This document shows positions 678 to 62,748 of a stretch of 64,000 nucleotides of DNA, piece by piece. The first letter of the stretch is position 1. Each line of letters begins with the position of its first letter. Under the pieces are notes generated by a model. That model had not been told where the DNA came from, searched no databases, and saw only the letters and a list, made by a program, of their open reading frames with translations. The position numbers and the translations under genes were made by a program. Origin of the DNA: Amphiura filiformis (Eukaryota; Echinodermata; Ophiuroidea; Amphilepidida; Amphiuridae); NCBI RefSeq assembly GCF_039555335.1, contig NC_092631.1, positions 6,832,481 to 6,896,480 of the forward strand. The letters are read 5' to 3'.

Positions 678-767
678 CTACAGAAGGAGCCCACACGCTA
701 TACCCACGATAATAGCAACGAATATGATGAGCATGCAAACGATGAAAATCATCGCCCCGGGACTCAT
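678..767 (-). CDS. Member A exon 2 (membrane helix)
   Basis: This exon starts MSPGAM and encodes about 20 hydrophobic residues, then GLLL and a stop. Its acceptor directly abuts a microsatellite of about 480 bp. Confidence 0.55.
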   Translation of the reverse strand: MSPGAMIFIVCMLIIFVAIIVGIACGLLL

Positions 768-886: not shown

Positions 887-3328
887 GGTAGGTAGGTAGG
901 TAGGTAGGTAGGTAGGCAGGCAGGCAGGCAGGCAGGCAGGTAGGTAGGTGGGTGAAGTGGGTGGGTATGGGTGAAGTGGGTGAAGTAAGTGGGTGGGTAA
1001 GTGGGTGAAGTAAGTAGGTGGGTAGGTGGTGGGTGGGTGAAGTGGGTGGGTAGGTGGGTGGGTGGGTAGGTAAGTAGGTAGGTGGGTAGGGTAAGTAGAC
1101 AGGTAAGTGGGTAAGTGGGTGGTGGGTGGGTAAGTAAGTAGGTGGGTGTAAGTAGGTAGGTAAGTGGGTAGGTGGGTGGGTAGGTAAGGTAGGTGGGTGG
1201 GTGGGTGGGTAAGTGGGTGGGGAGGTAAGTAGGTGGGTATAGGTAAGTGAATAAATAAACAAAATAAAGGATTCATTATTTTCTGTCCATTTATACATTT
1301 TGTATAATTAGACCTATAATATTATCTATACTAGTAATTTATACATTTTGCAGTAATTAGGCCTATAATATTATTTATGCTAGTAAACATTCAATGTTTA
1401 GAAAAAAAGTATGTGACCAAACTTCCCCAATAATCCTGTCAGAGACCTAAAACTAACATGTATAAAAAAGTCTATATTTTATTTTTATGGATATGAAACC
1501 AATGTTGCTTTAATAAGATACACAATCTATTGTTATCCGGCCCCTTGTTATCATATTAAATATGAGAACAGACATCTTGTGCAAATATATAGCTACAAAT
1601 ATCACGCAATATTTGAACATTGTGACGTTTTTTCTTGTTCTGTTCCCTTTCACATTGTTAAAAACATTGGGTAAAAAATACAGCATGATGCAGTCATGTC
1701 TACAGTAGAATTCATCTCGACCTTTGCAGGACTTAAACCACATTAAAAGCTATTAAACCAAGATAACACTCATTGAAACAGCTCAACTGATTAAATCGGA
1801 TCTTCTCTGGTTGTGCACATGTGTCTGTTTTAAGCTTGTTTTACATGTGCGATATCGCAATAAAGCTGGTATTATAGCTTCGGTTGGGTAACCGATTATA
1901 AAGGAAACGAAAGGATACAATGGTATGTGGACCTTTGTTCACGAAATGAGACAATGGCCTGCTTTTTGTTAACCAGCATTCTTGAAAATGAGCAACATAA
2001 TGATTGTTGACTTAACACGGTTTGGAAATAATTTCTTCATATTTTTGGTGTTATCTGTCGTTTACATATCCTTCCTAAAACACAAAAGTGCGACCCTCTC
2101 CAAACACCTAAATTAGCTAAAAATTTAGGACATGTTACAAAACTATATTTTCTAGAATTTCATAGAATAGTTTAAATGTAGCTTGTACCGTTTTTGTGGC
2201 ATCCTTCAGAACGGAGCGGTCCGTTACCAATATAGCTCAATATTTTCGGTCAAATCTCCATTCAATTAACACGGGGAGTTGGCTAGCTATGAGCTAGCTA
2301 TGCTTTGCCCTCACTCATATTCTACGAAAGTGCGACCCTTCTGAACATCTAACCTAGCTGTAATGTTAGGTCATGTTAGAGAAATATATTTGCTAGAAGT
2401 TTGGAGAATAGTTAAAATATTGGCCGGTTATTTTTCACACAGTGATGTTAACTAGGCAAATGCAATATACTTCTAACATAGACTATTTGTAAAGGTCGCG
2501 CGTCAATGGTGAGAGCACTGTGTATTGTGTATATAGGAAAACGGACAGTAACTGCAGTATGGTTTACTATAAAGGCGCGTGGGATGACAGTGTCCATATT
2601 TCTCTCGTTTTACTGACCATTAATTATAAAACTACAGTATAGGCCTACTTCTTAATATCGAGTCATTGATCTTATAGGGAATGAGTTATATTTCCATAGG
2701 TCTTGCGGTTCTTGAGTTAAGAACAATATCATAATATCAAAACGAAAGTTTTGGGTGCCCCCCCCCCGGCCCCCCCATCATTTAATGCACACCTATACCA
2801 TTCATCTTGTGTGTCAGCTTTATTTGTGACAATAATGTAAGAGCAAACACCGCTAGGTTATGCTAACCTCCGAACCCCCTTAACCTAGCAACACGATTTT
2901 TGTCGAAGTTTACCCAACTTGTTATAGACCTACAGTGACAGTGAAATGAATGTCACTGGATGTCATGGAATTATTTGGTTGATTATAGGCGTTGCCAGGC
3001 TTCTAAAACTCTTTACGCTGTATTTTTCTGTAATTTAACATAGAAATACTTTATTTACCTCTTTATTTCGACTCAAAATGAAAAGGAAACAGTGACAGTG
3101 AAAATTATATAATTTATAATTTTGTGTAAAAAAGTACAAGTCTAAATTGATCAGAAATCCTACATTATTGCTTTGACTCTGGATTCCGTTATTTGTGATA
3201 TAGGCCTCCATGTAAGGTAGAAAGCATCATGAAAAGTGAAATAATGTAACTGGAAAATTAAAAAAAACACAGCATAAGTATCGTTAAATTATACGTACCT
3301 CTCCTCCGCCTCCTTCTCCAGCTCCCAT
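678..3328 (-). CDS. Member A: tiny single-pass membrane protein (two exons, possibly incomplete)
   Basis: Exon 1 is 3328-3299 (MGAGEGGGGE) and ends GAG|GTACGT in phase 0. Exon 2 starts at 767 after a TTACAG acceptor, also phase 0, and reads through a hydrophobic helix (IVCMLIIFVAIIVGIAC) to a TAG at 680-678. The simple reading is a 39-residue protein with a Gly/Glu-rich cytoplasmic end and one membrane segment. The exon layout and helix resemble members B and C. A weaker reading splices at 682|681 (GTAGCT), which would give the phase-2 donor seen in B and C and lead to a tail exon that I did not find. A CRE-like TGACGTCA touches the start codon on its 5' side. No function is known. The canonical splice sites and the shared architecture are the main support. 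Confidence 0.55.
771..1250. repeat. Tetranucleotide microsatellite abutting the member A acceptor
   Basis: Successive blocks of GTAA, GTGA, GTAA, GTAG and GCAG are followed by a mixed GTGG/GTAG/GTAA region. On the minus strand it forms the pyrimidine-rich end of member A's intron. The plus strand has no CT dinucleotide from 770 to 1282, so the minus strand has no AG over about 513 nt upstream of the acceptor. The long Pro/Thr/Leu/Tyr-rich reading frames here are translations of the repeat, not genes. Confidence 0.97.
1686..2560 (+). repeat. Copy 1 of a ~0.85-kb inverted duplication
   Basis: This segment matches the reverse complement of 27602-28436 with small indels. It lies inside the member A intron. 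The minus strand at 1743-1686 carries the peptide FKSCKGRDEFYCRHDCIM, kept in the other copy with one substitution. No terminal inverted repeats were seen, so it may be a segmental duplication or a dispersed repeat. Confidence 0.8.
2690..2880 (+). repeat. Dispersed repeat, copy 1
   Basis: Shares blocks with 7935-8165 in direct orientation, including a CATAGGTCTTGCGGTTCTTG block and a later CTTGTGTGTCAGCTTTAT block, separated by different spacers. A C-rich run lies at 2760-2776. No coding potential was seen. Confidence 0.6.
3299..3328 (-). CDS. Member A exon 1 (start codon)
   Basis: Ten codons, ATG to GAG, followed by the strong donor GTACGT. Member B's first exon ends in the same way. Confidence 0.5.
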
Positions 3329-4434: not shown

Positions 4435-4626
4435 GAAGTACAAACCTGATGAATCTATTCACTGAAGTTTATATTTGATTTGCAGCCCTAGGAAAAACAA
4501 TGTGAAAATAAAAATTAATTAATAAAAAAAGAGGTAGAGAAGACACGCAAGTAAATGAACAAAATTGTTCCAGGGTTCAACAATAATTGTGCAATACCCT
4601 CGATACCCGGATCGACAGTCCTTTGC

Positions 4627-9059: not shown

Positions 9060-9354
9060 TTACCTTGGCGACCGCACAATATCTAATAATGATAGATCGT
9101 CTGATTTCCGAATTTTCCCGCCAAAAAGAAAATCCAATGATCTTCTGCCTCGTCTTCGATCAGTTTTGCTGGTTCCCCTCCTCCGCGTAGGATTGCAGTC
9201 GGGATTCGTTCGACTACCATGTTTGCCTTTTTTGCTAGCCTCGGTTTCAGAACACGGTGTTACGGTCTTCGGTGGGGCTTGGGTGGTCACGACATGCGGC
9301 TTGATTTCTTTTCTATATAGGGTATTACCCACTTGATATATGATTTCTTTTGGC
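9060..9354 (-). CDS. Member B exon 3 (basic tail)
   Basis: 97 codons plus the stop. The acceptor is CCCAAAG|G. A second in-phase acceptor lies 90 bp upstream (AAAG|A, exon start 9444) and would add 30 residues with a second hydrophobic run (GFIITYFCLFVIIISV). The shorter form matches member C better and was chosen. Confidence 0.65.
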
Positions 9355-11160
9355 CTTTGGGAAGAAACAGAAATAATTATTACAAACAAACAAAAGTAGG
9401 TAATGATGAATCCAACGGAAGAGGGCACAAAAAACATCAAGGATCTTTAAATGATATAAGTGGGTACCTAACATATATGTGAACAACTGTAAAGAGAGCA
9501 AGGTACACCAACTTGATGTGGAGAAAAAAATAAAACATAACGGTATGCAATGGAGCCACCTTTTCAGGATATACTGGTTTTGGTAAAATATGACAAATTG
9601 TTTAAGGGTATATGTACGTCACATATACAACATAATGCATATACTGTTCAGTTCAGTTTTATTTCGCTATAGCAAGATGAATAATCCCGTGAATAATACA
9701 GCACATCAGTATATCTTTATGTATTACATAGCCTACAAAGTTATGCTACAAAAGTAGGACTAATTATAGGCCCCCTAATGACACAAAATTTTTGTAAATA
9801 ATTTAGAAACTTTTTGAAATTCATTCCGCTTAAGGTGGCCGAATCAAAAGCTATCAAACGAATCTCCACTGAAGACAATGAATGCACACGGTGATCATAA
9901 TGATTTTTGTTTGAAAATGTAGGCTAAAGGGACGTAGGCTATAGCCAAAGGGACTTTTTTGGTGGGCATATATGACATGCGATACTGGCCACAATCACAG
10001 TCATTTCAAGAAAAACACTGTATTATACTTACGGGCGTGGACATAATATATGACATGCGATACTGGCCACTATCACAGCCACTCCAAGCAAACATACTAC
10101 AAGAAGCAGACATAATCGCCATCGTAAGCCAATGTGTGACTGCAGTAAAAAGCATAATATGCATGTGCGTATATTAATGGGCTTACATGATATAGAACAA
10201 AACATAAACAAACACGTACAACATATTAACGCAACGTAATGTGACGTAATAGAGCATAACATGATAGAATATTGTATAATATTATACGTAACGTATAGCG
10301 TAACGTAACGTATAATATAACGCAGAATAGAGAGATTGCGATTTCCAAACGTATCGAAATTACGTGGTTTTGAATAGATTCCACGTACGTTCGATTATAC
10401 GTACGTTTTGAAATCGCAATCTCTCTAATATATCGTAACGTATACCGCAACTGTTACGCAACTTAACGTAACAATACATAACCATTAAAGCTAATGTAAT
10501 CTTACACTAACACAATATAATCACAACATAATACTTAATAAGCGTAAGGTAGACCAAAGACACCAGTAAGTCCCAAATGCGTTAACTTTTTCTTTGGTAT
10601 AAAACCAGGTTTTTTAGGCGCGTAATTGATTAAATTCTAAGTGCGGGTAAGTATCAACACATTTTTAAAAGCTTTTTTTTATACCGTTACTCGTTATTTT
10701 CATGATTGATTAATACGGCAGAAACGCGTAAGCAGAAATAACGAGGTATAAACGTGAAAGAAACTCACTGACTGACTCACTGTTCACTGACTTTAGCGTA
10801 ATAGTCTGAAGTTCAGTTGTCCCAATATAACCGGAACATAATATACTCGTCCCGCTAAAATTTAACACTGGTGACAACCTTGTCAGAAAGTGATTATTTT
10901 GATAGAATATATTTAAAATTAAAAAAAAAGATAAATTAAATTTTGGATTAATACGCAAGCCCAGTCATTATCTCACCACATGTAAAACGCCCTTTCAGAG
11001 GGCCTTTCACTCAGTCGCATTCGTTAACCACTTGCCAAAAATATGTTACGTGTTGCATTTATCAACATTCTTCCGATTTGCAACTAACAAGAACTCTATT
11101 GTAATATTAATATTATTATAGTAGGTTACGTACCTCCTTTTCGTTTTTATCCTTGGCCAT
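9060..11160 (-). CDS. Member B: type II membrane protein with basic, two-cysteine tail (three exons, 142 aa)
   Basis: Exon 1 (11160-11134) encodes MAKDKNEKE and ends GAG|GTACGT. Exon 2 (10139-10033) follows CTGCAG and encodes SHIGLRWR, then a helix (CLLLVVCLLGVAVIVASIAC), then HILCPR, and ends CC|GTAAGT. Exon 3 (9354-9060) opens CPR-P-PKEIIYQV and encodes a Pro/Thr linker (TTQAPPKTV), two cysteines 18 residues apart around SKKGK, and the clusters RRRG and DRRRGRR, ending SLLDIVRSPR. Phases 0 and 2 match throughout. A charged start, an early helix with flanking Arg on the inner side and a long basic C-terminus predict a type II plasma-membrane or secretory protein. GRR|SLDF could be a convertase site. 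The family is not recognised. Member C shares exon lengths, phases and motifs, which is the strongest evidence that both are real. Confidence 0.72.
9959..10008 (-). pseudogene. Partial tandem copy of member B membrane exon
   Basis: The minus strand reads TVIVASIACHIC, an almost exact repeat of the end of member B exon 2, which lies immediately upstream on that strand. It lacks the CC|GTAAGT donor and the front half of the exon. It is best read as a broken partial exon duplication. Confidence 0.7.
10033..10139 (-). CDS. Member B exon 2 (transmembrane)
   Basis: 107 bp, the same length as member C exon 2. Encodes SH..RWR, an uninterrupted hydrophobic helix of about 21 residues, then a Cys-containing juxtamembrane stretch. 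Confidence 0.75.
10328..10427. mobile_element. 100-bp foldback MITE
   Basis: Near-perfect arms start TAGAGAGATTGCGATTT and end AAATCGCAATCTCTCTA, with TACGTACG-rich centre. It sits in member B intron 1, within a CGTAACGTAACG-rich tract (10200-10480). Confidence 0.85.
11134..11160 (-). CDS. Member B exon 1 (start codon)
   Basis: Nine codons, MAKDKNEKE, then GTACGT. A TATA-like TTTATACC on the minus strand near 11271-11264, about 105 bp 5' of the ATG, could serve as a core promoter element. Confidence 0.65.
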
Positions 11161-11360
11161 GATGTTATACGTGAATCCTAAACACCCGCCTAAACACCTC
11201 CATACAGAACTCCATAAAGGCAATTCACCAAGTAGTCATGGACACAAATGCGGCTAAATAATAAGGTATAAACCGCGGGCATAAACGAACCAATGTCGAG
11301 TTCAATCTAATAAGACTGGACGAGCAAGCTTTACATCACATCTATGATATTGGCAATTTA

Positions 11361-11640
11361 ATATCATGGTTCCAGATCCAGGCTTATAACTCTATATACG
11401 CGGGCGTTTTTTGTTACAAATTCAAAAATTGCATAATTGTACATTTACGTGGCCATATTTGGAATCGGCATGAAAAATGCATCAAAATGAGTACAAACAA
11501 GCCTAGTATTGGTTCAGTGGTTCTTAAGGTAGCTCTTGATATTTTGAGAAAATATCTCAAAACTTGGGACTTTTTATGTTGAAGCCTATATACTCGCATG
11601 CAGAGCATTAATACCATGGTTCCAGATCCAGGCTTAATTG
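11361..11640. repeat. Dispersed repeat R1 between ~28-bp direct repeats
   Basis: The R1 family has core ATGCATTTTTCATGCTGATT. Here it lies between two copies of CATGGTTCCAGATCCAGGCT (11365-11384 and 11617-11636). This copy is in the reverse orientation of the 12.1-kb copy. Confidence 0.7.
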
Positions 11641-12099
11641 AGCAGACATGCAACCCATGCATTGGAATGATTTGCTTTCATAATTTACTAAAGAAGTATA
11701 CTCATTTAACAGTACGCAGTTCATTAACCCCAATATGTTGTTACGCTCATAAATTGACCTCTGGTTACATTGGGTACAAAAACTCATTCTCCAGAACTTG
11801 ATGTCAAATTTGGTTCTGATGGTTTAAATGGTAGGCCAACGAATTGTGTAATTAATATGAGATTATTTCACTCATAGTGATTTTATAATGTCACTTTTGA
11901 CTCATCATGTGAAAGTAATTGCTTTATATTTCTATTATTCATCATTGCCTCTACCACTACCAAGCAGTTATGTTTCAATGAACCGGACACGATAATTAAA
12001 TTAGTATTCCTACCCTTGAACAATCAATCCATACGTGTTTTAATATACGATAGATGGGCGGATTAGAGCGCAATGTGGGCTTAATGCTCTGCCTGCTTA
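11641..12099. other. Gene-free stretch
   Basis: No coding exon, RNA gene or sharply bounded repeat was recognised. Confidence 0.5.
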
Positions 12100-12330
12100 C
12101 CATATATACTCATAGGTTTCAACTCAACATAAAAAGTCCCAAGTTTTCTCAAAATATCACGAGCTATCTCAAGAACTACTGACCCAATACTAGGCTTGTT
12201 TGTACTCATTTTAATGCATTTTTCATGCTGATTCCAAATATGTTCATAAAAATATACAATTCTGATTTTTTTAAAAATTTTTAAGGAAAATTGGAAACTT
12301 GTCTTCCGCTTTTAACCACGGTTTAAATGA
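12100..12330. repeat. Dispersed repeat R1 copy
   Basis: Carries the R1 landmarks CAAGAACTACTGACCCAATA, AGGCTTGTTTGTACTCATTT and GCATTTTTCATGCTGATTCC. Related copies lie at 11.4, 16.3, 20.5 and 60.7 kb. Confidence 0.75.
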
Positions 12331-13671
12331 GGTACCCGCGTGATCATGGTAAATAGACTAATGCATTGGATTCATTTTTGTCCAGTTTCACCCATTATTA
12401 ATTTATGTTGATTTGACAAAACTGTGTGGTTTGTGAGCATATATTGGGTCAAATGTGTATAGCAAATTATTAATTTGAAATGTTGATTTGACAAAACAAA
12501 ATATTATATTTTAACTGCGGTTGGTGAGCATTTTGATTATAGGGTCTTTGACGCCGGGTTAAATGTTTGTGGAGAACCTTACGTTTTGCAAACGTGTAGG
12601 CCTATAGTAAATGACAACGACTTCGCAGTCAGTCCCGACAAGGATAGTTTACTCTGTCCATCATGCAGTTATTGTTAACTTCATGTATGCACACAACACA
12701 GGGGCACTCACAATAGGCAATTGACCCGTACTGGTAGCGCTGTGTTGTAGATATAGGAGATGAACTAGTTAGCGTCATATATCAAAATGTATAAAAGCTA
12801 TGATTTAGTACTTGCTTTATGTTTCAATTACTTATTCTTTTCAAAATCGGAATTTTTAACCCGGTACAAGCTTTAATAACGGGGGACCATACATTTGTAT
12901 GAGAAAGGAAATTACAATCTTATCCAAACTCCCGTGTCAATCCAATGCACATTTTGCTTCAATCAAGCATGGTTTATTCTCTACATATCAATCTTTAAAT
13001 TATTAGCATAGTCCTTATAATAACGGTGGACCGCCTTGATGAGTAAATGATAGCAAACCAGTGAAAAATACCCCAAAACTCAGTCAGTGGAGCTCCGCCC
13101 GTACATGTCAATAGCGTCATTATCGATTGGATTAGTTGACCGTAGCGGACAATTCGATAGCTCATTGGATTAATATTATCACGTGGTAAGAAATTTGCAT
13201 TGGACAATCGATTACTATAATGGATTAGTACTGCCAGAGAAGCTGGTACTGCATATCTCGGTTTAATCTTCACTAAGCGGGTTTATCATCGGCTGAAAAG
13301 GTCACGGTGAATTTGCCGTGGACAAAACTGCACTATGCATGTACATCAATGTTCTGAGAACAATGCCTGAACGTAACACCGCCTACCTTAGATGTCATCT
13401 ACATAATGTGATTTTGCTCGAGCACAGTTACAGATCCTGGTGCAGGTGCCTCTCCAGGATCATGTGACTCGACGAACATTAATATTGTCCCCGAAATGAA
13501 CAAACATTATTGTTCGGTATGGTATTCATCGGATATCACATACCGTTAAGTCATACGAGCGACTAGCGACTGATTATTGACAAATAAACTGATTCGTTAG
13601 TTTTAAAAAGGAAAAACAAACGAGCCGTCTCATTTGGTCAGATCACAATCGCTAGTTATTTCAGCTTATCT
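12331..13671. other. Gene-free stretch
   Basis: No supported exon. The repeated TTGATTTGACAAAAC motif (about 12408 and 12483) indicates a small diverged duplication. The minus-strand frame at 13273-12995 has no known motif. Confidence 0.5.
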
Positions 13672-14165
13672 AAGTCTGCACAAAAAGAAACTCAGCTGTT
13701 ATAAACACGACTACAGTTTCAGAACTAATAATTATTTTCACAATATTTCAACATAGAGAGAAGAATGAATTATTTACACGCATTTTGATACCACATTTGT
13801 CAAATGTTGTTCAATATTAACAACACAGTAGTGTTTTTAAAGAAAAATACCAGAATTTAAAAGTAGCAGTTCACAGCGATCAATGGTTATTATGCCAGCA
13901 CGGTTGCACGTAAAGCCCGCCATTATCTTCACGCTTACTTCAAATCAATACAAATAGCTGCAACTTTTAAATTCGGCTATTTTTCTTCCAAAACACTGCT
14001 GTATTGTTAATATTGAACAAAATTGGACAAATTGGGTATCAAAATGCGCGTAAATAAACCATCCTTCTTTTTATGTTGAAATAATGTGAAAACAATTATT
14101 AGTTCTGAAGCTATAGGCCTAGGCGTGTTTATAACAGCTGAGTTTCTTTTTGTGCAGACTTTATA
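13672..14165. mobile_element. Long foldback MITE
   Basis: Arms of about 200 bp are inverted copies: AGTCTGCACAAAAAGAAACT opens the left arm and its complement ends the right arm near 14158. The centre is unique. It is flanked by TA, consistent with a mariner-like MITE. Confidence 0.8.
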
Positions 14166-14588
14166 TGTGATCACATATACCACTATGCAGTCTTTCCTGC
14201 ATGTAGGCTTTCCTTACGCCGGACTTTCTACCAAAATCATTGATGTGAATCTGAAGTTACACATTAGGCCCTATTCCAAGATTTTAACTCGGGATCGGGA
14301 TTTGTAACGAGCAACACCACCCCCTCGCACATGCCACACACGCCCATACAAACGCGCACACGAATGACGCATACAATATGAGCAACCACACGCAACCACA
14401 CGCCCGGCCCCGCCCCGCGACAAAAATATGTGTTTTTAGTGATTTTCCCCAAAATGTGTGTTTTTACTTGACTAATTTCCATTCCAAAAAACTTATACGT
14501 ATCTTGCATGAATAATCAAGAAGTTAGAGCACTTTTGATGAATGCATTTCTGAAGCTCCTGAATAATGACTGAACTTATGTTGTACTA

Positions 14589-14643
14589 ATAAATTCATTG
14601 TTGTGTTATGTGAATGCTAACATAACACGATAATGAATTTATT
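14589..14643. repeat. Short perfect-type hairpin
   Basis: AATAAATTCATTGTTGTGTT pairs with its near-exact complement ending at 14643, with an 8-base loop. No poly-U tract or gene end suggests a role. Confidence 0.7.
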
Positions 14644-14865
14644 GGAAATATTATTGTGTAATATGCGGCTCATCATGTGTAGTCTGGAACATATCATGAT
14701 TTCATTTTCAATAAATAATAAACAATGCAAACACGTATGGTATTATCAATTTAAAGTATATACTATAGACAAATGTAGACAAATACGCGGTGCCAAATAT
14801 TCAGCAGAGTATCATAGGCCGCCCTACTCGTATTATTGAACGCGAAAATCAAAATCAAGTAACCG

Positions 14866-15870
14866 TAGGGACGTAGCAAGAGCCTTGGGGCCCATGGACA
14901 AGAAGCAGTAGGGCTACTGGGCCCCTTTTAACATGTCCTTCAGCCCTGTCCCTAAACCACATATATGTGTTCCAATATCTGTGCTATAACCCATACTTTT
15001 GCTCGGGCCAGGTTTCGGAAGTTGTGAATTGTTGACCCATTTATTTTTTTACTTTTTATTTTCTAAAAAGCAAAACATTTTCAACGCGTGTTTATATAAT
15101 TAAAGTACGTGTATTGCAGCGTAAACAGACAGATTGGGACAACATGTACTATTGTGCACCATCTACAAGCAATGCACACAAATTATAATCATGATAATTG
15201 AATATATGAATACAAAACCCACCCAAGTCCATACTTTGGCCAAATTGAGTTAAGCATGGGAAATTGTTGCTATACATAGGCCTGTCATGAAAGAACAACT
15301 CAAATTGTCTATTGAGCATGTGAAAAATAGCATGCATGAAAGAACCACCAAAGTCCATGATTTGAGTCTTGTAACACATTGATTGAAATCCAGTATGTAT
15401 AAAAGTCCACTTGTAACACATTCATTACTGGAGAGTGACTTGGTTTAATCAAGGAAAGTGTGTGGTTTACCGTATATTACATGGCAGAATGCTTATCAAC
15501 ATTATACATACCTGTGTGCTTTATTGTGTATTATCTTACTAGTGGTAATCTCATTCCAACATTATTGTCTTTGTATATGATTCAAAAAACCACCCAAGTC
15601 CAGCATTTAAAATGAACCCCACGAAGTCCCTGAAATGCTAATCGTCATACCTAATACAGTTTAACCTACTCTTTTGCATGTAAAACTTACCATATTGACC
15701 AGGTAAATCTAACTGAAGGAATTAAAATGATACACAAGTTTTTTCTCAAAATCACTTCCCATGGACTTGGGTGGGTTTTGAATTCATGTATTCAATTGTC
15801 TAATGTTGACCCATTTTTTTGTGGCTGCGCTGCTCGGGGCCCCTGTCCACACGCTTGCTACGCCCTTGTT
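14866..15870. mobile_element. hAT-like nonautonomous element with nested inverted repeat
   Basis: The left end AGGGACGTAGCAAG and the right end CTTGCTACGCCCTTG are complementary and of the AGGGGCGTAGC type common in hAT elements. Inside, CAAAACCCACCCAAGTCC (about 15212-15229) pairs with GGACTTGGGTGGGTTTTG (15763-15780), marking a nested or internal foldback. Confidence 0.6.
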
Positions 15871-16232
15871 CAAATACATTTTACATAAAGCGCAGGACAA
15901 ATTGCTTGATAACGATTTTATGCGGCATATAATTATTTTGAAACATACTGTAAACGGACGATTTCATCATCGTACTTTTTACCATGATTATGTTGATTTT
16001 GTCAGCCACCTGCATACAAAACGATTTTAATCATCGAACTTTGAAAGTACAATGGGACTCTCAAATCTATTACACATTATAGACGTGCTTTATTCGTATA
16101 CATCGCGCGTCGCGTGTGTTTTTCATATACCAATGTTTCTACGAAGCACAAAATTATACTGATTTAATAAAAAATAGCATATTTTTTCGGGTATAAAGTG
16201 CACTAACTTTACCCTGCACATATTGCGTATTA

Positions 16233-16470
16233 ACGCTCCACGCGGGTGTAGGCTGCAGACGACAATTTTCATTTTTTTTAAGTCGAAAAATTTCAGTGTT
16301 GTAAATCTTCATGAACAAATTTGGAATCAGCATGAAAAATGCATTAAAATGAGTACAAACAAGCCTAGTATTGGTTCAGTGGTTCTTAATATAGCTCTCG
16401 TGACTTTTTATGCTATTGCTAAGCCTAGCAGGCAAAGAATTAATGATGCACACACAGAGCTAAAGTGCAT
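16233..16470. repeat. Dispersed repeat R1 copy
   Basis: Contains GGAATCAGCATGAAAAATGC and the CCTAGTATTGGTTCAGTGG block in reverse orientation relative to the 12.1-kb copy. Its outer end CACGCGGGTGTAGGCTGCAG matches the R1 terminus near 60.85 kb. Confidence 0.7.
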
Positions 16471-17106
16471 GTAACGCATTAGGCATACACCAAAATCTAT
16501 TATCAGGTCCGCAATACATGTATAAATATAAAGATATTTTGGTGGATTAAGAATGATTCGTTACAGAAACTCGTAGCCATCCAGCGTCTTCGTATAATAC
16601 ATATCGTTGCTGAAGTTTATTCTTCTATACAACCACGGTAGGTCTCTTTTAATTAATTGAATAATTTTGAGTATGAACTTGTAAAACTTGTTGAATTCTA
16701 ACACTTAATTCTTAAGGGTCAATTATAGACGGTTTGCACGTGTACGTGTGAAGTCATATTATTCGATTCTTCTGCATGTGTGCGTGATTGGTTTCTTAAT
16801 TCTTATTGCACTTAGCTTTATTAATAAGCCTATAATGAATTAATTATAGGCCTATACTTTGATCAGCTCGTAATCGGCGGGCCTTATAACATCGTGGATT
16901 ATCAAAATATGTTATTTCTAGTGACCTCTTGCCAGAAGCATCACAAATGAAATTATTAATTCAAGTCAAGTCATATACTTTGTCTACACCCGTGTCTACA
17001 CACAAACTAGGCCAGACAGGTCAAATGACAGCATCTTACAGTTTGATCAGCTCGTAATCGGTGGGTCTTATAACACCGCGGATTGATATACTTTATTTTG
17101 AAAATT
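16471..17106. other. Gene-free stretch with a duplicated motif
   Basis: TTTGATCAGCTCGTAATCGG occurs at 16858-16877 and 17042-17061, each followed by a CTTATAACA..G.GGATT block. Relatives with GCCGATTACGTGCTCATCAA lie near 17851. No exon was supported. Confidence 0.5.
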
Positions 17107-17609
17107 ATCGGGCCTTGCACACCGACATCGCCTGGCTAATAATTATTTGGTGCAGCAGTGACATTAAAATGAATACACGGGATCGATACACGTGAATTGC
17201 TATGCACGATTTTGATATCAGACGAAAATCTTCGGATACTGGGTTATAAAATGATGAATATCTCCCGTAAATGAATTTTTCTCAAGAAACCAGATGTGGT
17301 CTCATACACTTGAAAATACGTGTTGAACAGATATGATAGTCGTTAGCGTGGACGTGCGCTTTGAAAATTGGCCGTGCGCTTTGAACTCAAAATTTGACCA
17401 AAACTCTAATTTTATATTGCGTTGGTCCTGTATCATGCATATGGACTACAGCGCGCAGCAGGCTATAGCGGCACTCACTCAAGTGGAGAGTAGTAACCAT
17501 TGACCGCAATGATGTCGTATACAAGCTTACTCACACAGCGAGAAATCAATTACACCGTCTATATCAGTAGCCTTAGTCAGGTCACTTCGCTAATTATACA
17601 TCTCATAAG
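17107..17609 (-). repeat. Copy 2 of an inverted pair with 6361-6755
   Basis: Reverse complement of the 6.4-kb copy with extra internal sequence. It lacks the SINE that follows copy 1. Confidence 0.8.
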
Positions 17610-18762
17610 GTCCGAATAAAATGGCCATGGTTGGCTGTGGATTCAACCTACCATGGCGATTTATACCATGAAGATATCGGGGCGATGTCACTGTGCCTTG
17701 TGAGATCTCGTCAGAAGCATCACAAATTATTACTTGAAGACCTATACTTTGTCTACTTTATTAACACGCACCATACAGATCAGACATGCAACTATATCAC
17801 TACACTCTTAACGTGGGTCTAATTGTCGGCACAATGGTAAACAATTCCCGCCGATTACGTGCTCATCAAAGTATAACGTGGATCTACTTTTCGGCGTAGT
17901 GGTAAAAGCCTAACTTTCCCGCCTATTTCGAGCTGATATTGGGCTCTTTATTCTAATATGGCTTTAAAACAGCGTGAGCGTAAATGACTATGAATTTGGG
18001 ACACCGAAACAAATGTTTACATTGATACCAGACCTATTATAATAGTACAATAATTAGCCCCTCTCCCCTCCAATAATGGCTTTAATTATAAACGTTTTTT
18101 GTTAAACTGAGACTTTTACTTTTTCAGAAATTAATGAATTAATCGAAAAACTTTTCAAAGAACGCTCCCTTATTGGTCCGACCCTTAAGCTCTACGCATC
18201 ATCACATTATAAACTTTAATATTGTCTTTGCATGCAGTATTTAGCCCTTTCACGGCTAGCAACATTTTTGATTTAAATTTAACATTGATTTCAACGTACA
18301 GCCCAGTTGCTGCAAGCAAGTTCAACCAAGTTAGCAGATGAACGAGGCTTTGAACGAGGCGAGCAAAAATAAAATAAATGTGTATGGTATTTGTTTAATA
18401 TTTGATTGCCTAACTGGATTCGCTGCGAATATCTAACAAAACTTTAAAAATAAGTCGGGGTCCGGTATGAAAAGTTAGGTATGAGAAGAAGGCCCGGCTC
18501 GGGGGAGTATTGTACCAATCCCGATTTTTTGGCATATGCTGCGATTTTTGACTCTACGCTGTGATTTTACCCTAAAATGCTTAGCTTTGAATTGTTATGA
18601 CAAACTTGTCACTTTTATGTCGCATGTAAAACGCCCCCAAATCTAGAAATTAGATATTGACTCTTGGTAATTTTTTCGATCATATTTTTTTTCTTCAGAT
18701 CTAACACTTGAAATATAATATAATATTTTATTTGTGTGTTAAAAGCCGTCAAAACCGTAGTA
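17610..18762. other. Upstream region of gene D
   Basis: The repeated motif GTCTAATTGTCGGCACAATGG / ATCTACTTTTCGGCGTAGTGG (17818-17905) looks like a diverged tandem pair. A TATAATATAATATTTTA stretch at 18715-18731, 32-48 bp before the gene D ATG, is a possible core promoter or AU-rich leader. No other gene was seen. Confidence 0.4.
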
Positions 18763-20281
<1,519 letters not shown>

Positions 20282-20475
20282 AGACGACGACCACACTCCA
20301 AGAAGATAGTACCTTGAGCGGAATAATTAATTTTATCAATACATAACATTGGTGATGGTTTTTGCGATTATATTCATATGGTGGTTTATCATAATGACTT
20401 TGTCACAAAAAAATTGTTTTGATTTGGACATGATGCAGAAGCAAATCACTGTGAAAAGAAGCGGTTCTCATTTGC

Positions 20476-20690
20476 TAGCCATAGGCTTCAACATAATTGT
20501 AAAGTTTTGAGAAAAATATCAACAGCTATAATATCTTAAGAACCACTGAATCAATATTAGGCTTATTTGCACTCATTTCAATGCATTTTTCATGCTGATT
20601 CCAAATATGGTCATGAAAATTTACATTTCTGAAATTTATAAATTGTCATATATAGTCGTCACCCGCGCCGTGTGGAGTGTCTAAAGGTTG
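20476..20690. repeat. Dispersed repeat R1 copy
   Basis: Starts GCTAGCCATAGGCTTCAACA, carries GCATTTTTCATGCTGATTCC, and ends in GTCGTCACCCGCGCCGTGTGG. Same orientation as the 60.7-kb copy. Confidence 0.8.
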
Positions 20691-20799
20691 AGAGACAGGG
20701 CTGCATCTCAATTATGTAACTTTGTAAGGGTACTACATGTTAAAACATGTCTAACGAACTGTGCCATCGGAATCGAGACAGAAAGCTGACTTTTTATCC

Positions 20800-21455
20800 C
20801 ATCGGTGAGTGACGAGCGATTGATTTTTAGCCAATGAGCAATGAGGTAGAGCGCTTCTGAGTAGTATACGGGGCTTTAGGGACATCTCGAACCGGAAACT
20901 ACCTTTAACCTCGGTTGACCTTTGACCCGAACCGGAAACGACCTTTGACCTCGGTTGACCTTTGACCTCATGAATATTACTGAGATGTCCCTAAAGCCCC
21001 GTATACTACTCTTCTGGTTAATTGCGTTGGGAAAAGCCAGGGCCGGATTTACCATAGGGCCAGATGGGCCCGGGCCCAGGGCCCCCAAATTTTTGGGGCC
21101 CCCAAAATTGCCATGTGCAGTGTACATCTTCCATTTAGCCGAAAAACACTGTTTTGGGCCAAAATAGTCTACAAAAGTTGCAAAATTTTGCGCGCTTCGC
21201 GCGCTCTGGCCTGCTATACAGCAAAATTAGCTTCAATTCGGGCTAAAATAGTATAAAATTTAAAAAAAATGCGCGCAAATGTCCTAGTAAAATCTAAAAT
21301 CTTGGCAACATGAGTGCACATGCCTTCCTCACGGTGCGTTTGGGGCCTCCAAAGTTTGGCCTGGCCCAGGGCCCCCAAAAAGACAAATCCGGGCCTGGGA
21401 AAAGCGCGCTACGTCATTAGTCAATTACCAATCGCTCGTCGCTCAGCGAATGAGT
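20800..21455. mobile_element. Foldback element interrupted by a hAT MITE
   Basis: Outer arms around GACGAGCGATTG (about 20811) and its complement near 21431, and inner arms GTATACGGGGCTTTAGGGAC and its complement (20980-21006), form a foldback. The core repeats GACCTTTGACC-type motifs twice. The right arm is split by the element at 21038-21397. Confidence 0.7.
21038..21397. mobile_element. hAT-type MITE with exact 8-bp target duplication
   Basis: Ends CAGGGCCGGATTTACC and AAATCCGGGCCTG are complementary and are flanked by GGAAAAGC on both sides (21030-21037 and 21398-21405). No transposase was seen. 360 bp. Confidence 0.92.
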
Positions 21456-22433
21456 ATAAATTCAGCTCTAGGGGACGAAAAAATCCCGTTCAGAAAGGAC
21501 CTTTCAAGTATATAAATAGGGTCGGTCGGTCGGGATGGATCTGTTTTCTGGAAAAGGCAAAATGACCCTTAAAATATCACAGAAAGGTTGAAAATCCGAA
21601 CAAAATCTGAGATATTTGTGCAAACATATTTTGAAATTGTTTTCAATCCACTTCAACCAAGATTTTAATTTCATTCAGGTAAAACAACAACAGTCTTCAA
21701 AACGTAAAATCTGGGTTGGTCGGGCCCCTGGTCGGGCCCGTGGAACAGGTTTGTTTTTTCGTCGCTGTTAATCTTTTTAAAACAACAATGAAAATATGTT
21801 ACGTCGATGTCTTGGGAACACTTAAATACAAAAACTTCATTTTGTTTGCTGTTTTGAAATAAACCACATTAAAACGATTCAGTAAGAAATATGCTTACAG
21901 TTTGTGTCTGTCTGTTTATTGATTTTTTAAAACCGGGATTGCTCATTCATGGGTTAATTCTCTGTTCTTCTACGAGACCCAGAGAATCTAAGAATCTATA
22001 GGGAGTCCCGACCCATCACCATGTCCTCAAGTAACCTGCCCAGCCTTCCAGTCAGCCCAGCATCCAGTCACCACTTAAGGGCGCATGCCAGACCCGTACA
22101 GGGGGGGGGGGGTACGAAAAACTCAGTTTTTAAATGCTTTTTTAGTCAAATAGGTAAACATTTTGAGAAGGGCCACTTTTCACAAAATCGCCCCTTGGAA
22201 AAAAGATCTTCTTTTTCAAAATCCGCACTCCCAAAAATAAAATCAGCCCGGGCGCACCATTATCCATCTGGAGAGCATGGAGTTTGGGTTGGGCGAAAAA
22301 ACTTGATTATTACAACAAAATATGTATTACCAAATACCTCTTTAATTGAGTAGAGGGAATTCAACATAACGTCTAACATTTAATGGTGCGCGGTGGAGGT
22401 TCCAGATCTCATCCCGTTGCCTGGTTACCTATT
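21456..22433. other. Gene-free stretch
   Basis: No supported exon. A G run lies at 22101-22110. The plus-strand frame at 22021-22353 has no recognisable motif and spans low-complexity sequence. Confidence 0.5.
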
Positions 22434-22575
22434 CGCCGTAGAAGTGATGTAATAAGAGGATTAACTACCATAGCAATAGATGAATACAATTTTTGAACGT
22501 ATCGCTCTTCTCTACAAGAAGATCGCACTCATCACATGTGTATGTCTGCAATTATTGATTGAATACAATATAATA
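22434..22575. repeat. Fragment of the TTACTTCTA foldback family
   Basis: Carries GTAGAAGTGATGTAATAAGAGG-like sequence and the ATTACCATAG..ATG block, as in the larger element at 40240-41495 and the copy at 46610-46715. Confidence 0.6.
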
Positions 22576-22629
22576 GAATTTTGTAAGTGTCAGCCAATTG
22601 TTGAAATCGTAAAAGCTCCACAACCAAAC

Positions 22630-22775
22630 TCGTCATCAGGGTTGGCTTCAAAACACCATCAGTTTCCCCGCCGGTTCCACCCGGTTTCTATTGTTCTAAA
22701 CAATGGAACACGGTTCAACCGCCGCGCCGGTCAACCGGCGTCCGACTTTTGAAGCCGTCCCTAGCTTAAATCAGT
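22630..22775. mobile_element. GC-rich foldback MITE
   Basis: GCTTCAAAA at the left and TTTTGAAGC at the right enclose CCGGTT/AACCGG-rich arms around TTGTTCTAAACAATGG. Same family as 31633-31753. Confidence 0.7.
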
Positions 22776-25120
22776 CCAGTCAGTGAACAATCAACATTGA
22801 ATTAATAAATTCGAATTTAGATATTCGTCAGGTGGTCATGGGCGCCGCCATTACAGAAAACAATCAGGAGACAGATGATAATCCATTATACACAAACAAA
22901 AGAACAGAAAAATATCAATGAATTGTAATAGAACTGATTTTAAAATGCATCGATAGCTTTTCCATTTAAAATCCACAAAATCCACACTACAGCTCAACTT
23001 ACCGTACTTTGCCTAACCAGACAGTCCATGCCAAAATTGTTACTACACCTTTACATTTCATCGAATCTCTTTTTGATGTCTGTCATTTTGAACATCACAC
23101 TTGAAAGATGTATGCTATGTAGAAACTTTATTTTGCAATTTCATAATTTGCATATAATTAGCATATTTGCAAGAAAAAACATTTAAATCAATAAATACCT
23201 ATATTTTTCACAATTTCAATATTTTATTAGAAATTAAGCATGTAGGCCTTTTGTTATGACTTGATGAATGAAGCTGTTAAAACAGATTTTGATATTTTTG
23301 CTTATTTTTCCTTTTTTGCCCCAAAATGTGTAAAAATCAACATTTTTTGGATGACCTATATTTTCTTTGAATATTTATCAAATTTCTTAATTTAGGTATA
23401 ATACAGTGCAGAAAAAGATGTCAAAAAATCTGTTAAAACAGATTTCCAATAAATTGTTCCATTTTCCATTTTGGGTTAAATACTCAATTTTCATGCGCGG
23501 GATATTTGAAACATAAAATGAAAACATGTCCATTGCACTTTTTCCTCGAGATGTACTATAATATCAAGGTTACGGATATATTATAATCCCTTCTTATCTT
23601 CACTGATCCATCAGATACCTATTGTTATGAATGATCAATGAAAAGGTTCAGAACTGGGCTACTAATGGTCTGTCAAGTATCTATAGTTGTTTTCATGACT
23701 GTGTCAACTCAAAAATCATGCAAGGTCGAATGTAGGAAAAGTATGATCAGTTGAGCTGTACCCCTGTGGAAGATTTAGCTTTTAAGCTAAAATGGAAACT
23801 TAAAGTCTTCCACAGAGGAAGTTGTGGAATATATGGGTAAAGCCATAATAGGGAGTATGGTCAAGGGGGTGACACTAAATTCACGGTTGTTCTATTAGCA
23901 ACGCAAAACCTATGAAAAATTCCGCTGGTTTACTAGCTAGAAAGTGAGGCCAGTTATCGATCCGTTATGAATAATTCATGTTCGGCCCCTTGGATAATGT
24001 TAATTGATATTGGCAAATAACAACGTTGTTAGTTTTGCGAACTTTGCCTGTTCAATGAGAGTATAGCGCGCCCCCAATACATCTGGGCACAAACCAGGCG
24101 AAAAACGATCCAGTTTAATGAAATGGCGGACGGGTATTCCCATCAGGCACCAGTGATATGTTTTTTTTCAAAGAAAGTCTATTAATTTGATATGAAATGA
24201 CATTTTGCAATAGCAAAGTCAAAATTAGGACTTGAGGTTAATAATATGAAGGAAATACGTGACAAAGGCAAGGTGTGAAACACAAGTAGTATTTGAAGCC
24301 TCAATAACCTTTGATACCCGACCTGACAGCTCCTGACCTTCCATAGCTTTCCATCATGGCGCCTTATTCGTCTTTATGTATTTCTATTTATGCTCTCAAG
24401 TAAAATAAAATACCACCAGCACTAAGCAGACAGAATGTTACTTGGCTCCCGGCATGAATTATTGATTTTATACGGAGGTAAAGAAATACACAGTTGCCTG
24501 CAAGCCGTGCAACATACTCCAAATACTTACGGTAAATCTGAATAATGGTCACATGTTGACATATCATGTGTTCGGGAAATCACGTGGTAACATTTTAAGA
24601 TTTCAGGCTTGTTGACTAGTTAATTGCCATTTGTACTCTTTATTATTTATCTTTGTTAATTAACATATATTTTAAATGCTGATAAATCGTGGTTGGCTGC
24701 CCATGATATCTGTTAAATTCAATGTTTTATGAATATAATTCTACCACGCAGAGGGGTCACGCAGAAGAATTTCACCTTACCTGACTTAGCTAGATTTCGA
24801 AGCTCTGCTCTTCAAATTCATGTAAATTTCAAAGTTTATACACTTAATATATTTAATATGATACTATTTTTTTGTTATAACCAACTGGTACACGAAATAT
24901 ACTAGCTTATTACCTATACAGATAGGTGAATATCAGCCTTCACTCAGCAATTTGACATGCCCGGCATATGCAGCCATTCTCCGTCTGGATAATATGACTG
25001 TCGCCCTCAATACGTCTGGGCACAAATTTAAATAACAATACGCTATTTACATATCAATGCGGCCTCATGCTAATTAATGCTGCCCCATCCAGGAGTTCAT
25101 CTATGGTATGGTTTCAAAAT
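22776..25120. other. Gene-free stretch with diverged repeats
   Basis: No exon was supported. It holds AAATCCACA.TCCACACTAC near 22980 and the TCTTCCACAG block near 23806, both pieces of the TTCCACAGGGG family. Two copies of a CAATAC.TCTGGGCACAAA motif lie near 24075 and 25010. Confidence 0.5.
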
Positions 25121-25123
25121 GAT

Positions 25124-25215
25124 TATAACCCTGACCAATTACATTTGAATAACATACACCTCCTGAGGAAGATATCTTCCACAGGGGCAGTGTGGATTTC
25201 AACTGGAATAGCCCA
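25124..25215. repeat. TTCCACAGGGG family fragment
   Basis: GAAGATATCTTCCACAGGGG followed by GTGTGGATTTCAACTGGAAT and AGCCC, the characteristic right end of the family. Confidence 0.7.
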
Positions 25216-26195
25216 TTTGCACTTGGTCTTCATAGTTGAGATTTTCTTTTTCAGATGGAGTTTGAAAAACGAAATTTTACAAAATATTTACTGATGGAAA
25301 GCGAAGGTATTATATATCTCCTCTTGCAATCACACACCTTTGTTTAATACCCATGGCGTACACATCATCATCATAAACGCTTCTCGTCAGGCGGTGATGG
25401 AAGCGATATCGCCAATTTTGAGGTCGCCATTGGATTAACACATAATCATGAAATCTTCATAAACAATTCTAAATTTGTTATGTGGTGTCAAAGCAAAATT
25501 ATCTTACTCTAAAAGCGTCGGGGTACGACCGTGTACCACACTGCAAGTATGTTAATTTTCTATTTGTAATTGCTAACCGTGTATTTTGAATGGAGCTGTC
25601 AGCCCTGTATCTTCGCCAGCCTCGTACGTCACGTGTTGCGCTTCCTATGCCGCCTGCTTCTCGTCAGCAGTTTGACATAGCGCCATCAAGTGTACACAGT
25701 CATGAATAGGCCATTATTTAGGCGTGAAGGCATCGGGTGAAGGTCACCTTTCCAGACTTTTTGTCTGCAAGCAGTAAATGGCAGCCATTGGTATCAATGG
25801 ATTGTTTAATACGAATTAATCAATTCGGTATCACTGACTGTTCAAGGTGCCGTGGATAAAGCATGAAGTGAAATCAGATTTTACTCCTTTAAAGATAATG
25901 AAAGAGTACCGTACCGTACCGGCGTCCATACACATTACAATAATTCCTTTAATATTTCTGCACTAAAATGCAGTGAGAGGATACATGAAATTAGCAAATG
26001 GCATGGGCAAATGGCGCCTCAAACATATTTTACACACACAAAATTATGCACAACTGCCACCAACCAGTCATGTGATGTTGTGTTCTGTGCCTCATGTACA
26101 AAATCTGTAAATGTTCCTTCGCTAAATGTGGTCAGTATAGCTTTATCAGTCGTCCACTGATTGACATAGGGCAGGCCTATGAGTTTGGGCCGGGC
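25216..26195. other. Gene-free stretch downstream of member C
   Basis: GGCGGTGATGGAAGCGATATCGCC near 25391 is a short inverted repeat related to sequence near 8555. No exon was seen. Confidence 0.4.
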
Positions 26196-26376
26196 CTATC
26201 CGCGGCGGCCTTTGCCTCCTCTAGAAGCAGTTTTCGTAGCACCACCCGAGTCCGTGGAACAGGTTTTTCGTTTTTTACTACCAGTTCCCGGAGTGCAATC
26301 AGGGTCCACGGTTTTAGGTGCAGGTGGTACGTATACAAGTTTTCCATTTGCATTCAACTCGATCCGTTTCTTCACA
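26196..26376 (-). CDS. Member C exon 3 (basic tail)
   Basis: 59 codons plus TAG, after a CTATCCAG acceptor. The tail has about 15 Lys/Arg residues and two Cys, and is shorter than member B's because the last third (GRRSLDF onward) is absent. Confidence 0.7.
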
Positions 26377-29371
26377 CTGGATAGGTTATATAGAGAGAAA
26401 TAAGTTAATTAATTAGGCTAATTAATAATCAATTAGGAAATAAATAAGTAAATCAGTACATTAATCGATAAATACAACAACAATAATTAAATCGGAGGGG
26501 GAGAATTAGCTAGCTGTGTTTGCACTAATATTGTTTGGTCATTTTCATATACTTTGAAAACTTGCTTGATTTATTGTGGTGAATGAGATATGTATGTTTT
26601 ACAAAAGTGTTGTTGATTCAGCTCTCTTTAGGCCTACAACATAACTCAAGAACCACAGGACATACGAAGGTATAGGCCTATATCTGTGATATTTGAATTT
26701 TTCTACACACTCGCTATGAAATGATTAATGCAATTTTGCCAAAGCTCACTACCATTCGCAAGATGCTGTGAACTACCAAATCGCAACAGTTATATAGTTG
26801 CTAACCATTCATCATTTAGCAGACATTATTACCAAGAGGGTACAATACTTTATCCAGGGGTTAAATAACAGGGAAACTGGGTGGGCATACACCTACCCGG
26901 TGAATTGTTTTGTACACCCATCAGTAAATTCAACCTGTCCATAATCCAAAATGCCCCCCCCCCCCCGGGTGGGTCTTCAAAAATTTTGTACGGGGATGTG
27001 CCATGCAGACTCTCGGATGCTAACTTTCTCTATTCCTACTTTTAGCTGTTTTTGCTACCCATCAGTATACCAATTTTCAACAAAAACACCCCATCGATAT
27101 ACCAAAATATACATTTAAAAGCCTCCTTTAACCCCTCCCCCAGGAAATACCAATCCAGAAATTATTACTTACGGTCGAAAACAATGTACATGGCATGTAA
27201 TGCTGGCAACAATTACGGCCAATCCCAGCAGGCAAATGGTTAACAAGAAAAACACTCTCCAACGAGCACTCACATGAGACTGTATAAAGCAATCAAGAAA
27301 TAATTGGCAAATAATTATGTTTCAAGGAATTCATTATAGGCCTACCAGAAACATACAATAATGGTTTCTATGCATATAGACCTTTCGCGTTCATATACAT
27401 CCGAAGGGGGAAAAGCACAACAAACAATATAAAAACCCCACCCGAGTCCAAAGCTATCCCCAAACCCACCCCACACAACGGCAAACGCCTAAACGATAAT
27501 TCTCCCAGATGATAGAGTCTCGTTACGCATTACTGGTCACTATAACATGTAGGCTATAATGCACACTTTCCGTACACCGGTTGACCACACCAAAATATCA
27601 TACTGCAGTTACTGTCCGTTTTCCTATACACAATACATAGTGCTCTCACCATTGACGCGTGACCTCTACAAATGATGTATGTTGGAAGAATGGGCACTTG
27701 CCTTGTTAACATCACTGTGTGAAAAATAACCAGCCAATATTTAAATTATTCTCCAAACTTCTAGCAAATATATTTCTCTAACATGACCTAAAATTACAGC
27801 TAGGTTAGATGTTCAGAAATAGTCGCACTTTTGTAAAATATGAGTGAGGGCAAGGCATAGCTAGCCAACTCCCCGTGTTAATTGAATGGAGATTTGACCG
27901 AAAATATTGGTATCGGACCGTTCACTTCTGAAGGATGCCACAAAAAAACGGTACAAGCTACATTTCAACTATTCTCTGGCAATCATCATGATGAGTTTCT
28001 TATATAGTATGCCGAAATTGGGTACTGTAGGTGATTGACAAAGGGTCGCACTTTTGTGTTTTAGGAAGGATATGTAAACGACAGATAACACCAAAAATAT
28101 GAAGAAATTATTTCCAAACCGTGTTAAGTCAACAATCATTATGTTACTCATTTTCAAGAATGCTGGTTAACAAAAAGCAGGCATTGTCTCATTTCGTGAA
28201 CAAAGCTCCACTTCCTTACGTTTCCTTTATAATCGGTTACCCAACTGAAGCTGTATTATAGCAGCTCATTGCTATATATCGCACATATAAACAGACACAT
28301 GTGCACAGCCAGAGAAGATCCGATTTAATCAGTTGAGCTGTTTCAATGAGTGTTATCTTGGTTTAATAGCTTTTAATGGGGTTTAAGTCCTGCAAAGGTC
28401 GAGGTGAATTCTACTGTAGACATGACTGCATCATGTCGTATCGTTTCAACCTTCAATTTACGATATCATTGGCAATATTAACACATACACACGAGCACCC
28501 CGTACACACAACCCTCCTGCCTACAACCCCACTACCCCTAAACACCCCCACATACAACCCCACCACCCAAACACTATACTTATGATTTCATACAAAAGTG
28601 CATGTTGAAGAACAAAATGGATCGTTGGAACTCTTTAAAATCTTAGAAATTTTGTAAGTTTTGGATTAAGAATTTTTTCTCACACGTTCAATCGGGACTT
28701 AGGCCCTACATTCCACATCCTGACCCACCCCACCCCTCTAGACACAACACCCCACACAAATACCACTACTTGTATTCACCGGCAAACGAGGATGCATGTG
28801 ATACACACACCGTCAAACGAGGACGTTGACGTACTGACATTTTCCGCATAACCGTGGACGTCTCAGACATTTAAGTATATCCAAATGAGGGCTTATAATG
28901 TAGATATGGTGTATCCTGGCAATCAACGTCCACGGTTTGCACCAACGCACACCTTCTTGTAATACCTCCAAACGAGGACCTCATTCTGCATATGATTTAA
29001 TTATACCGAGGACACGTACACCCGTTCTTAATCGACACACACCGTGGACCTCACACCCCCACACACCAAGCAACTTACTATCCAATCGTGATTCGTTCTA
29101 TACCCTCCTAAATAGTGGATCAAATGCATTTTTGCATCATTTACGTTGTCCTGGCAAAGTAAGAAACCGAGAACGTCCTCGGTTGGAGGCGTGTGCTCTG
29201 TTGTATGGTGTGTATCCATATGTACGTCCTCATTTGGAGGTATTTACAAACGTACCAACTCACCCCCACGTCATGCAAATAACACAATGCACACCGAATA
29301 CAAACCTCCTTCATATATTTAAGATCACAGTCAGGAACTTCAGGGTCACTGTCACTCCGACACTCATCCAT
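26196..29371 (-). CDS. Member C: type II membrane protein with basic, two-cysteine tail (three exons, ~117 aa)
   Basis: Exon 2 (27279-27173, 107 bp) encodes SHVSARWRV, a helix (FLLTICLLGLAVIVASITC) and HVHCFR, ending CC|GTAAGT. Exon 3 (26376-26196) joins in phase 2 to give Pro, then VKKRIELNANGKLVYV, PPAPKTVDPDC, a basic loop SKKRK, a second Cys 11 residues later, and SRGGKGRRG-stop. Exon 1 is less certain: 29371-29306 encodes an acidic start (MDECRSDSDPEVPDCDLKYM, then KE) ending GAG|GTTTGT, phase 0 like A and B, but with an unusual T at intron position 3. The paralogy with member B (same exon 2 length, phases, CLLG-AVIVASI-CH, PKTV.P.C, SKK.K) is clear. Predicted topology is cytoplasmic N-terminus and cationic outer tail. 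Function unknown. Confidence 0.7.
26625..26825. mobile_element. Partial piggyBac-like MITE
   Basis: Matches one half of the TTAA elements at 33930 and 56032, including TTTTTCTACACACTCGCTATG, ACTACCATTCGCAAGATGCT and GTGAACTACCAAATCGCAAC. It sits within member C intron 2 flank. Confidence 0.7.
27173..27279 (-). CDS. Member C exon 2 (transmembrane)
   Basis: Follows TTTATACAG, phase 0 in and phase 2 out. Strong hydrophobic helix, arginines on its inner side, two Cys/His-rich positions on its outer side. Confidence 0.78.
27602..28436 (-). repeat. Copy 2 of a ~0.85-kb inverted duplication
   Basis: Reverse complement of 1686-2560. It lies in member C intron 1, as copy 1 lies in member A intron 1, but in the opposite orientation relative to the gene. 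Encodes FKSCKGRGEFYCRHDCIM on the plus strand at its outer end. Confidence 0.8.
29306..29371 (-). CDS. Possible member C exon 1
   Basis: 22 acidic codons from ATG to AAG GAG, then GTTTGT. Chosen because the phase and the KE ending match member B; the donor is non-optimal and other first exons cannot be excluded. Confidence 0.4.
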
Positions 29372-31490: not shown

Positions 31491-31632
31491 CCTAATACTA
31501 ACATTATCCTTAACCCTAATCCTAACCTAAAATGCAATACACTCTAACTTTAACCTTTTTCGCACTATGATGTGTTTAGAATCATGTTCCCGATATTCCT
31601 GTATGTCACTGAAAGGCATAGAACTGGTTAAG

Positions 31633-31753
31633 GGATGAAATCAAAATTCGACCGGCGGTTGACCGCCGATTCCGCCCGGTTTATGTTGTTTTAAACAATG
31701 GATACCGGACGGAACCGGCGGTCATCCGCCGGTCGAGTTTTGATTTCATCCCT
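31633..31753. mobile_element. GC-rich foldback MITE
   Basis: GGGATGAAATCAAAA and TTTTGATTTCATCCC bracket CCGGCGG/CCGCCGG arms around TTGTTTTAAACAA. Same family as 22630-22775. Confidence 0.85.
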
Positions 31754-62643: not shown

Positions 62644-62748
62644 TGATATTTTGTATTCATGTCATACTCTATTAATGATATCAAGATGCATTCAAATTCA
62701 ATGCATTTTGATATCATTAATAGAGTATGACATGAATATAAAATATCA
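62644..62748. repeat. 105-bp near-perfect hairpin
   Basis: The arms of about 49 bp differ at only a few positions, with a 7-base loop (CAAATTC). A TGATATCATTAA-type core repeats in both arms. Confidence 0.93.

Follow-up and report, generated by a model that had tools for sequence, protein, structure and literature searches.

Two minus-strand loci, here called B and C, are predicted to be old, duplicated and functional genes, each encoding a small single-pass membrane protein. We place the probability that they are a genuine pair of functional genes at roughly 0.88. Both lie in the stretch of DNA analyzed here (the window; 64000 bases, 36.9% GC), and each was modeled with three exons. B exon 1 (11134..11160, MAKDKNEKE) ends in phase 0 at the donor GAG/GTACGT. 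Exon 2 (10033..10139, 107 bp) encodes SHIGLRWR, a transmembrane (TM) segment and CHILCPRP, and ends at the phase-2 donor CCC/GTAAGT. Exon 3 (9060..9354) encodes a cationic tail with PPKTVTPC, SKKGK and RRRGRR, with a TAA stop at 9060-9062. C exon 1 (29306..29371, MDECRSDSDPEVPDCDLKYMKE) ends in phase 0 at GAG/GTTTGT, a weak donor with a score of 4.6. Its exon 2 (27173..27279, 107 bp) encodes SHVSARWR, a TM segment and CHVHCFRP before the phase-2 donor ACC/GTAAGT, and its exon 3 (26196..26376) encodes VKKRIELNANGKLVYVPPAPKTVDPDC, followed further on by SKKRKTC and KGRRG, and then a stop.

The four splice junctions of the initial annotation (11134/10139, 10033/9354, 29306/27279 and 27173/26376) all have a GT donor and an AG acceptor, and the frames are open when spliced. 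With exons taken at these junctions, B is a protein of 142 aa and C of 117 aa, with 0 internal stops. In all cases the acceptor AG is preceded by a T- or C-rich tract, and the GC content of exons 2 and 3 is 0.45-0.50 versus 0.37 for the whole window. Shared features listed earlier were also borne out: both first exons end in KE at phase 0, the TM exon of each gene is 107 bp long with a phase 0 start and a phase 2 end, and the third exons have PKTV.P and a basic SKK.K stretch in common. The N-termini have diverged, as had been described. Each protein has a single hydrophobic segment and a cationic tail, and basic clusters occur in both tails. Because the smallest exon has 27 bp and none exceeds 295 bp, automatic annotation may overlook the pair.

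Sequence comparison argues that the likeness of B and C is not chance. A blastp alignment of the two proteins covers 102 aa at 43%, with E 4.7e-21. When the window was scanned in six frames, a TM-exon profile recovered the C exon (E 9.6e-27) and the B exon (1.5e-23), and a PKTV profile recovered C (8.6e-15) and B (1e-13); these top E-values are partly by construction because the profiles were made from B and C themselves. The third match to the TM-exon profile (E 3.2e-6) was a duplicated fragment of the B exon itself. Beyond these matches, the best remaining E-value in the window was 0.16 for the TM-exon profile and 0.62 for the PKTV profile. The duplicated fragment, 47 bp on the minus strand (9968..10014), copies the 3' half of B exon 2 with 42 of 47 bases matching and 5 mismatches. 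It sits in B intron 2, 18 bases in, and looks like a non-functional remnant. When the two loci were compared as DNA at E 0.01, the sole intragenic match was 70 bp at the TM exon, and the introns could not be aligned. With intragenic similarity confined to the TM exon, B and C as copies of a mobile repeat were ruled out. A second match (52 bp, 88%, opposite orientation, ~8521-8572 versus ~25399-25450) lies below both genes and was taken as a dispersed repeat.

Codon positions in the TM exon are unequally conserved. Across its 35 full codons, 19, 30 and 11 bases are identical at positions 1, 2 and 3, respectively (chi-square 2.5e-5), with position 2 better kept than position 3 (30 versus 11 of 35; Fisher 7e-6). 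Residues are kept at 22 of 35 sites versus a neutral mean of 10.6 and maximum of 18, and 0 of 20000 simulations reached the observed value when the same 45 differences were scattered randomly, a simplified model that takes no account of multiple hits or of rate bias. The NG86 method gave a dN of 0.32 and a dS that was not computable. The YN00 method of Biopython gave 0.64/0.83 = 0.77 over 35 codons, a ratio that alone does not reject neutrality. The initial annotation had named a dN/dS near 1 as grounds for giving up the family, and at the TM exon the results divide: the codon-position pattern speaks against neutrality, whereas the YN00 ratio leans the opposite way. We weighed the pattern above the ratio because saturation is nearly complete at third positions. 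Between the third exons alone the likeness is modest: 26 of 2000 shuffles attained their score of 47, and 16, 16 and 8 of 33 bases are identical at the three codon positions. The pattern at the TM exon thus points to B and C as old duplicates maintained by purifying selection.

The tails also contain aligned elements. Cysteines from the TM end onward occupy positions 38, 42, 79 and 98 of B and 51, 55, 85 and 97 of C. Three of the four align but the second distal cysteine does not, and the two-cysteine tail proposed earlier was therefore not confirmed. Near the C-terminal end, GRR aligns in both tails as R-G-R-R in B, which presumably fits a furin-type site, and as K-G-R-R in C, which fits less well. 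No N-glycosylation sequon was found in B or C. The assignment of B exon 3 as a last exon was not upheld. Its TAA falls within the donor AAG/GTAAGA, the strongest in the three models, whose score of 10.8 was matched or beaten by 16 of the 7195 GT sites of the window (itself counted, both strands) under the donor scoring matrix used. A phase-2 GTAAG donor always displays such a stop, so B exon 3 may well be internal, in which case its last base would be 9064. A further exon is likely on this sequence evidence. Within the 1200 bases that follow, three acceptors (8884, 8817 and 8076) satisfy a simple pyrimidine criterion; by reading, joining to 8817 brings an immediate stop and leaves the protein unchanged, and joining to 8884 adds a few residues.

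The initial annotation had grouped B and C with a third locus, A, in a single family, a proposal that we now regard as possible but short of even odds. Putative A exon 1 (3299..3328, minus strand, MGAGEGGGGE) is tiny, ends in E and has a donor identical to that of B exon 1 (GAG/GTACGT), and a VC..(V)..IAC pattern in A resembles the B TM segment. Putative exon 2 (678..767, minus strand) encodes a hydrophobic stretch and then a stop, with its acceptor within a microsatellite. Against the grouping, that stop comes after 87 coding bases and truncates the TM exon, hence A lacks the 107-bp exon it had been said to share. Moreover, blastp of A versus B and C gave no match at E 10, and the A TM alignment score was reached by 45 of 3000 shuffles versus B and 1174 of 3000 versus C. 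The three-member family is accordingly not supported for A, which has a premature stop and no shared sequence detectable by blastp or shuffling, and the TM likeness of A to B and C would be largely due to composition. Copies of an 895-bp repeat, 86% alike, lie in the first introns of A (1678-2561) and C (27599-28441). They are inverted relative to each other, which indicates a dispersed repeat and not common gene ancestry. A may encode a membrane micropeptide of 39 residues, or nothing at all. A frame at 3619-4445 contains a GIY-YIG-like stretch (E 7e-4; 20.3 bits, under the 22.6 cut-off) and lies between inverted repeats of ~158 bp with 98% identity; it resembles a young Penelope-type fragment.

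Known families did not account for the pair. None of A, B and C reached the cut-off of any Pfam family, and NCBIfam gave no match at E 1 for B or C, a weak result since NCBIfam covers prokaryotes. A search for relatives in viral contigs yielded 53 pattern matches, 0 of them confirmed, and Rfam had no match over the whole window. Nothing in the analysis spoke for or against the antimicrobial, signaling or matrix-binding roles suggested in the initial annotation. In relatives, members of the family may be listed under the name 'uncharacterized protein', and a taxonomically restricted gene pair is plausible.

Elsewhere in the window, exons of a family-29 sialyltransferase occupy ~46853-61089 of the minus strand. 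Intron-split genes such as this one mark the DNA as animal, and an echinoderm or hemichordate source would be plausible. Of the four pieces scanned, three exceed the Pfam cut-off, and the one at 49271-49492 falls short; for the pieces when joined, the best match is ST6GalNAc2 (E 7e-36), followed closely by ST3Gal1 (3e-34). Since this enzyme is type II and on the same strand, B and C were considered as its N-terminal exons. The idea was rejected because, on the minus strand, the sialyltransferase pieces (~61.1 to 46.85 kb) are upstream of C. By reading, none of the listed open frames of at least 70 aa below C or B resembled the sialyltransferase catalytic parts. A tandem array at 48464-49377 (122-bp unit, 7.4 copies) reiterates the terminal part of a sialyltransferase exon together with the splice donor of that exon. 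In addition to the exon's own site, six copies retain CAACAG/GTA (three of them GTAAG) and so form a row of decoy donors in the intron. Between B and C on the plus strand, a two-exon frame of 79 aa (18763-18838 plus 20118-20281) begins like a signal peptide and ends in an Arg/Gly-rich stretch. It showed a weak match solely to the C tail (blastp E 0.30) and no Pfam family above cut-off. A direct duplication of 457 bp (40491-40947 and 40986-41442; 99.6% identity, ~495 bp apart) is either a recent event or assembly doubling. Long foldback (self-inverted) sequences at 13672-14161, 47620-48239, 38962-39198, 31628-31756 and 62644-62748 are probably non-autonomous mobile elements.

With no signal peptide ahead of it, the hydrophobic segment of B and C would act as a signal anchor. 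The RWR preceding the segment slightly favors an N-terminus inside, which would place the basic tail and its cysteines on the lumenal or outer side. We lean slightly toward this type II orientation from the residues around the segment. Counts of K+R on the N versus C side of the TM segment are 5 versus 2 in B and 4 versus 4 in C within 15 residues, and 5 versus 5 in B and 5 versus 6 in C within 30 residues. The tie in C weighs against the type II step, as does the acidic N-terminus of C (8 acidic among the 30 residues preceding the TM segment), which would suit the opposite orientation. A protease could trim or release the tail at the aligned GRR, although release by cleavage is doubtful. Whether membrane-held or shed, the polybasic peptides would bind acidic surfaces. 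We give even odds to this signal-anchored, polybasic-tail explanation as a whole. An extended form of it, in which an undescribed, lineage-restricted family of membrane-anchored polybasic peptides is encoded in a cluster next to the sialyltransferase gene, undergoes furin-type release at GRR and has the acidic sugars made by that enzyme as candidate targets, is quite improbable. Furin-processed type II ligands (TNF-family, BRICHOS) have a signal anchor, an extracellular stalk and a basic cleavage-like site, as proposed for B and C. Unlike those ligands, the B and C open frames have no folded C-terminal domain, and their tails have no Pfam match.

Somewhat unlikely is the opposite orientation, with the N-terminus outside and the basic tail cytosolic, as in TMIE. 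In this reading the tail would work through palmitoylated edge cysteines (CHILC/CHVHC) and a basic stretch that holds acidic lipids, a partner channel or a receptor. Such a tail is consistent with the C-side K+R of C, which equals or exceeds that of its N side, with its acidic N-terminus, and with the cysteines and R-P-x-K retained in B and C just after the TM segment; B, however, is more basic on its N side. TMIE, a part of the TMC channel complex, provides the closest likeness. Like B and C, TMIE (PF16038; C. elegans chain 7usw_D) is small and single-pass, with a tryptophan at the TM start, cysteines at the TM end, Arg/Lys with proline next, and a flexible basic tail. It has a palmitoylated cysteine at the cytosolic TM edge, and the first two cysteines of B (38, 42) and C (51, 55) lie at the C-terminal TM edge.

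Profile searches speak on both sides of a cytosolic tail. C weakly matches Pfam TMIE (13.5 bits, E 0.065 for the whole protein; 14.7 bits, E 0.027 for residues 1-70), far under the 27-bit gathering score of PF16038, on which human TMIE scores 112.4. B has no match, either as the whole protein or as two fragments, and Pfam TMIE also matches 2 of 6 versions of C that were scrambled by hand (E 0.047 and 0.083). With a two-sequence TMIE profile, C scored 4.3 bits, as high as 6 of 500 flank shuffles, and B 2.5 bits (21 of 500), counts that lend this orientation some support; one shuffled B reached 19.7 bits. The C TM segment with its cysteines matches TMEM125 about equally well (E 0.089) and FAM176 (EVA1) weakly (0.26), far under the cut-offs of 27 and 31.5 bits, and B matches neither. 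Searched against solved structures, a B+C profile gave 4 matches up to E 10, no TMIE chain among them, and B alone gave 2 at chance level.

B and C as TMIE itself were rejected on the cut-off, tryptophan spacing, elbow arginines, signal peptide, intron and scrambled controls. PMC9605866 places the elbow arginines of TMIE, R-x-x-R, 24 residues past W (worm R49/R52 and W25; human R81/R84 and W57) and describes an N-terminal signal peptide that is cleaved off ahead of the TM segment. In B (W16-R44..K47) and C (W29-R57..K60) the spacing is 28, not 24, the second Arg is Lys, and the motif is R-P-x-K versus R-x-P-R. By inspection, B and C have no recognizable signal peptide, their 17 and 30 pre-TM residues, respectively, being hydrophilic. 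The human TMIE intron lies inside the TM segment at c.211/212, according to PMC8256367, whereas the B and C segments fall entirely within one 107-bp exon. B and C may still work in a TMIE-like manner.

It is improbable that the hydrophobic segment of B and C is instead a signal sequence that has an unusually long N-region and is cleaved off, so that the tail becomes a soluble secreted cationic peptide. By eye, small residues by the segment end (ASIAC/ASITC) could suit signal peptidase, but the 21-residue hydrophobic core follows 17 to 30 hydrophilic residues in B and C, and a hydrophobic core after a long hydrophilic lead is typical of an anchor, not of a cleaved signal. Least probable of all is that B and C are open frames arisen by chance or dead copies of genes. 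Short exons, the YN00 ratio and the stray exon-2 fragment in B intron 2 might be cited for this, but against it stand B-C homology, the codon-position pattern and canonical GT/AG at every junction.

The predicted B and C pair is one among many uncharacterized small membrane proteins. If their tails are exported, the proteins would be candidate surface or defense peptides; if the tails are cytosolic, they would be candidate small partners of a channel or receptor.
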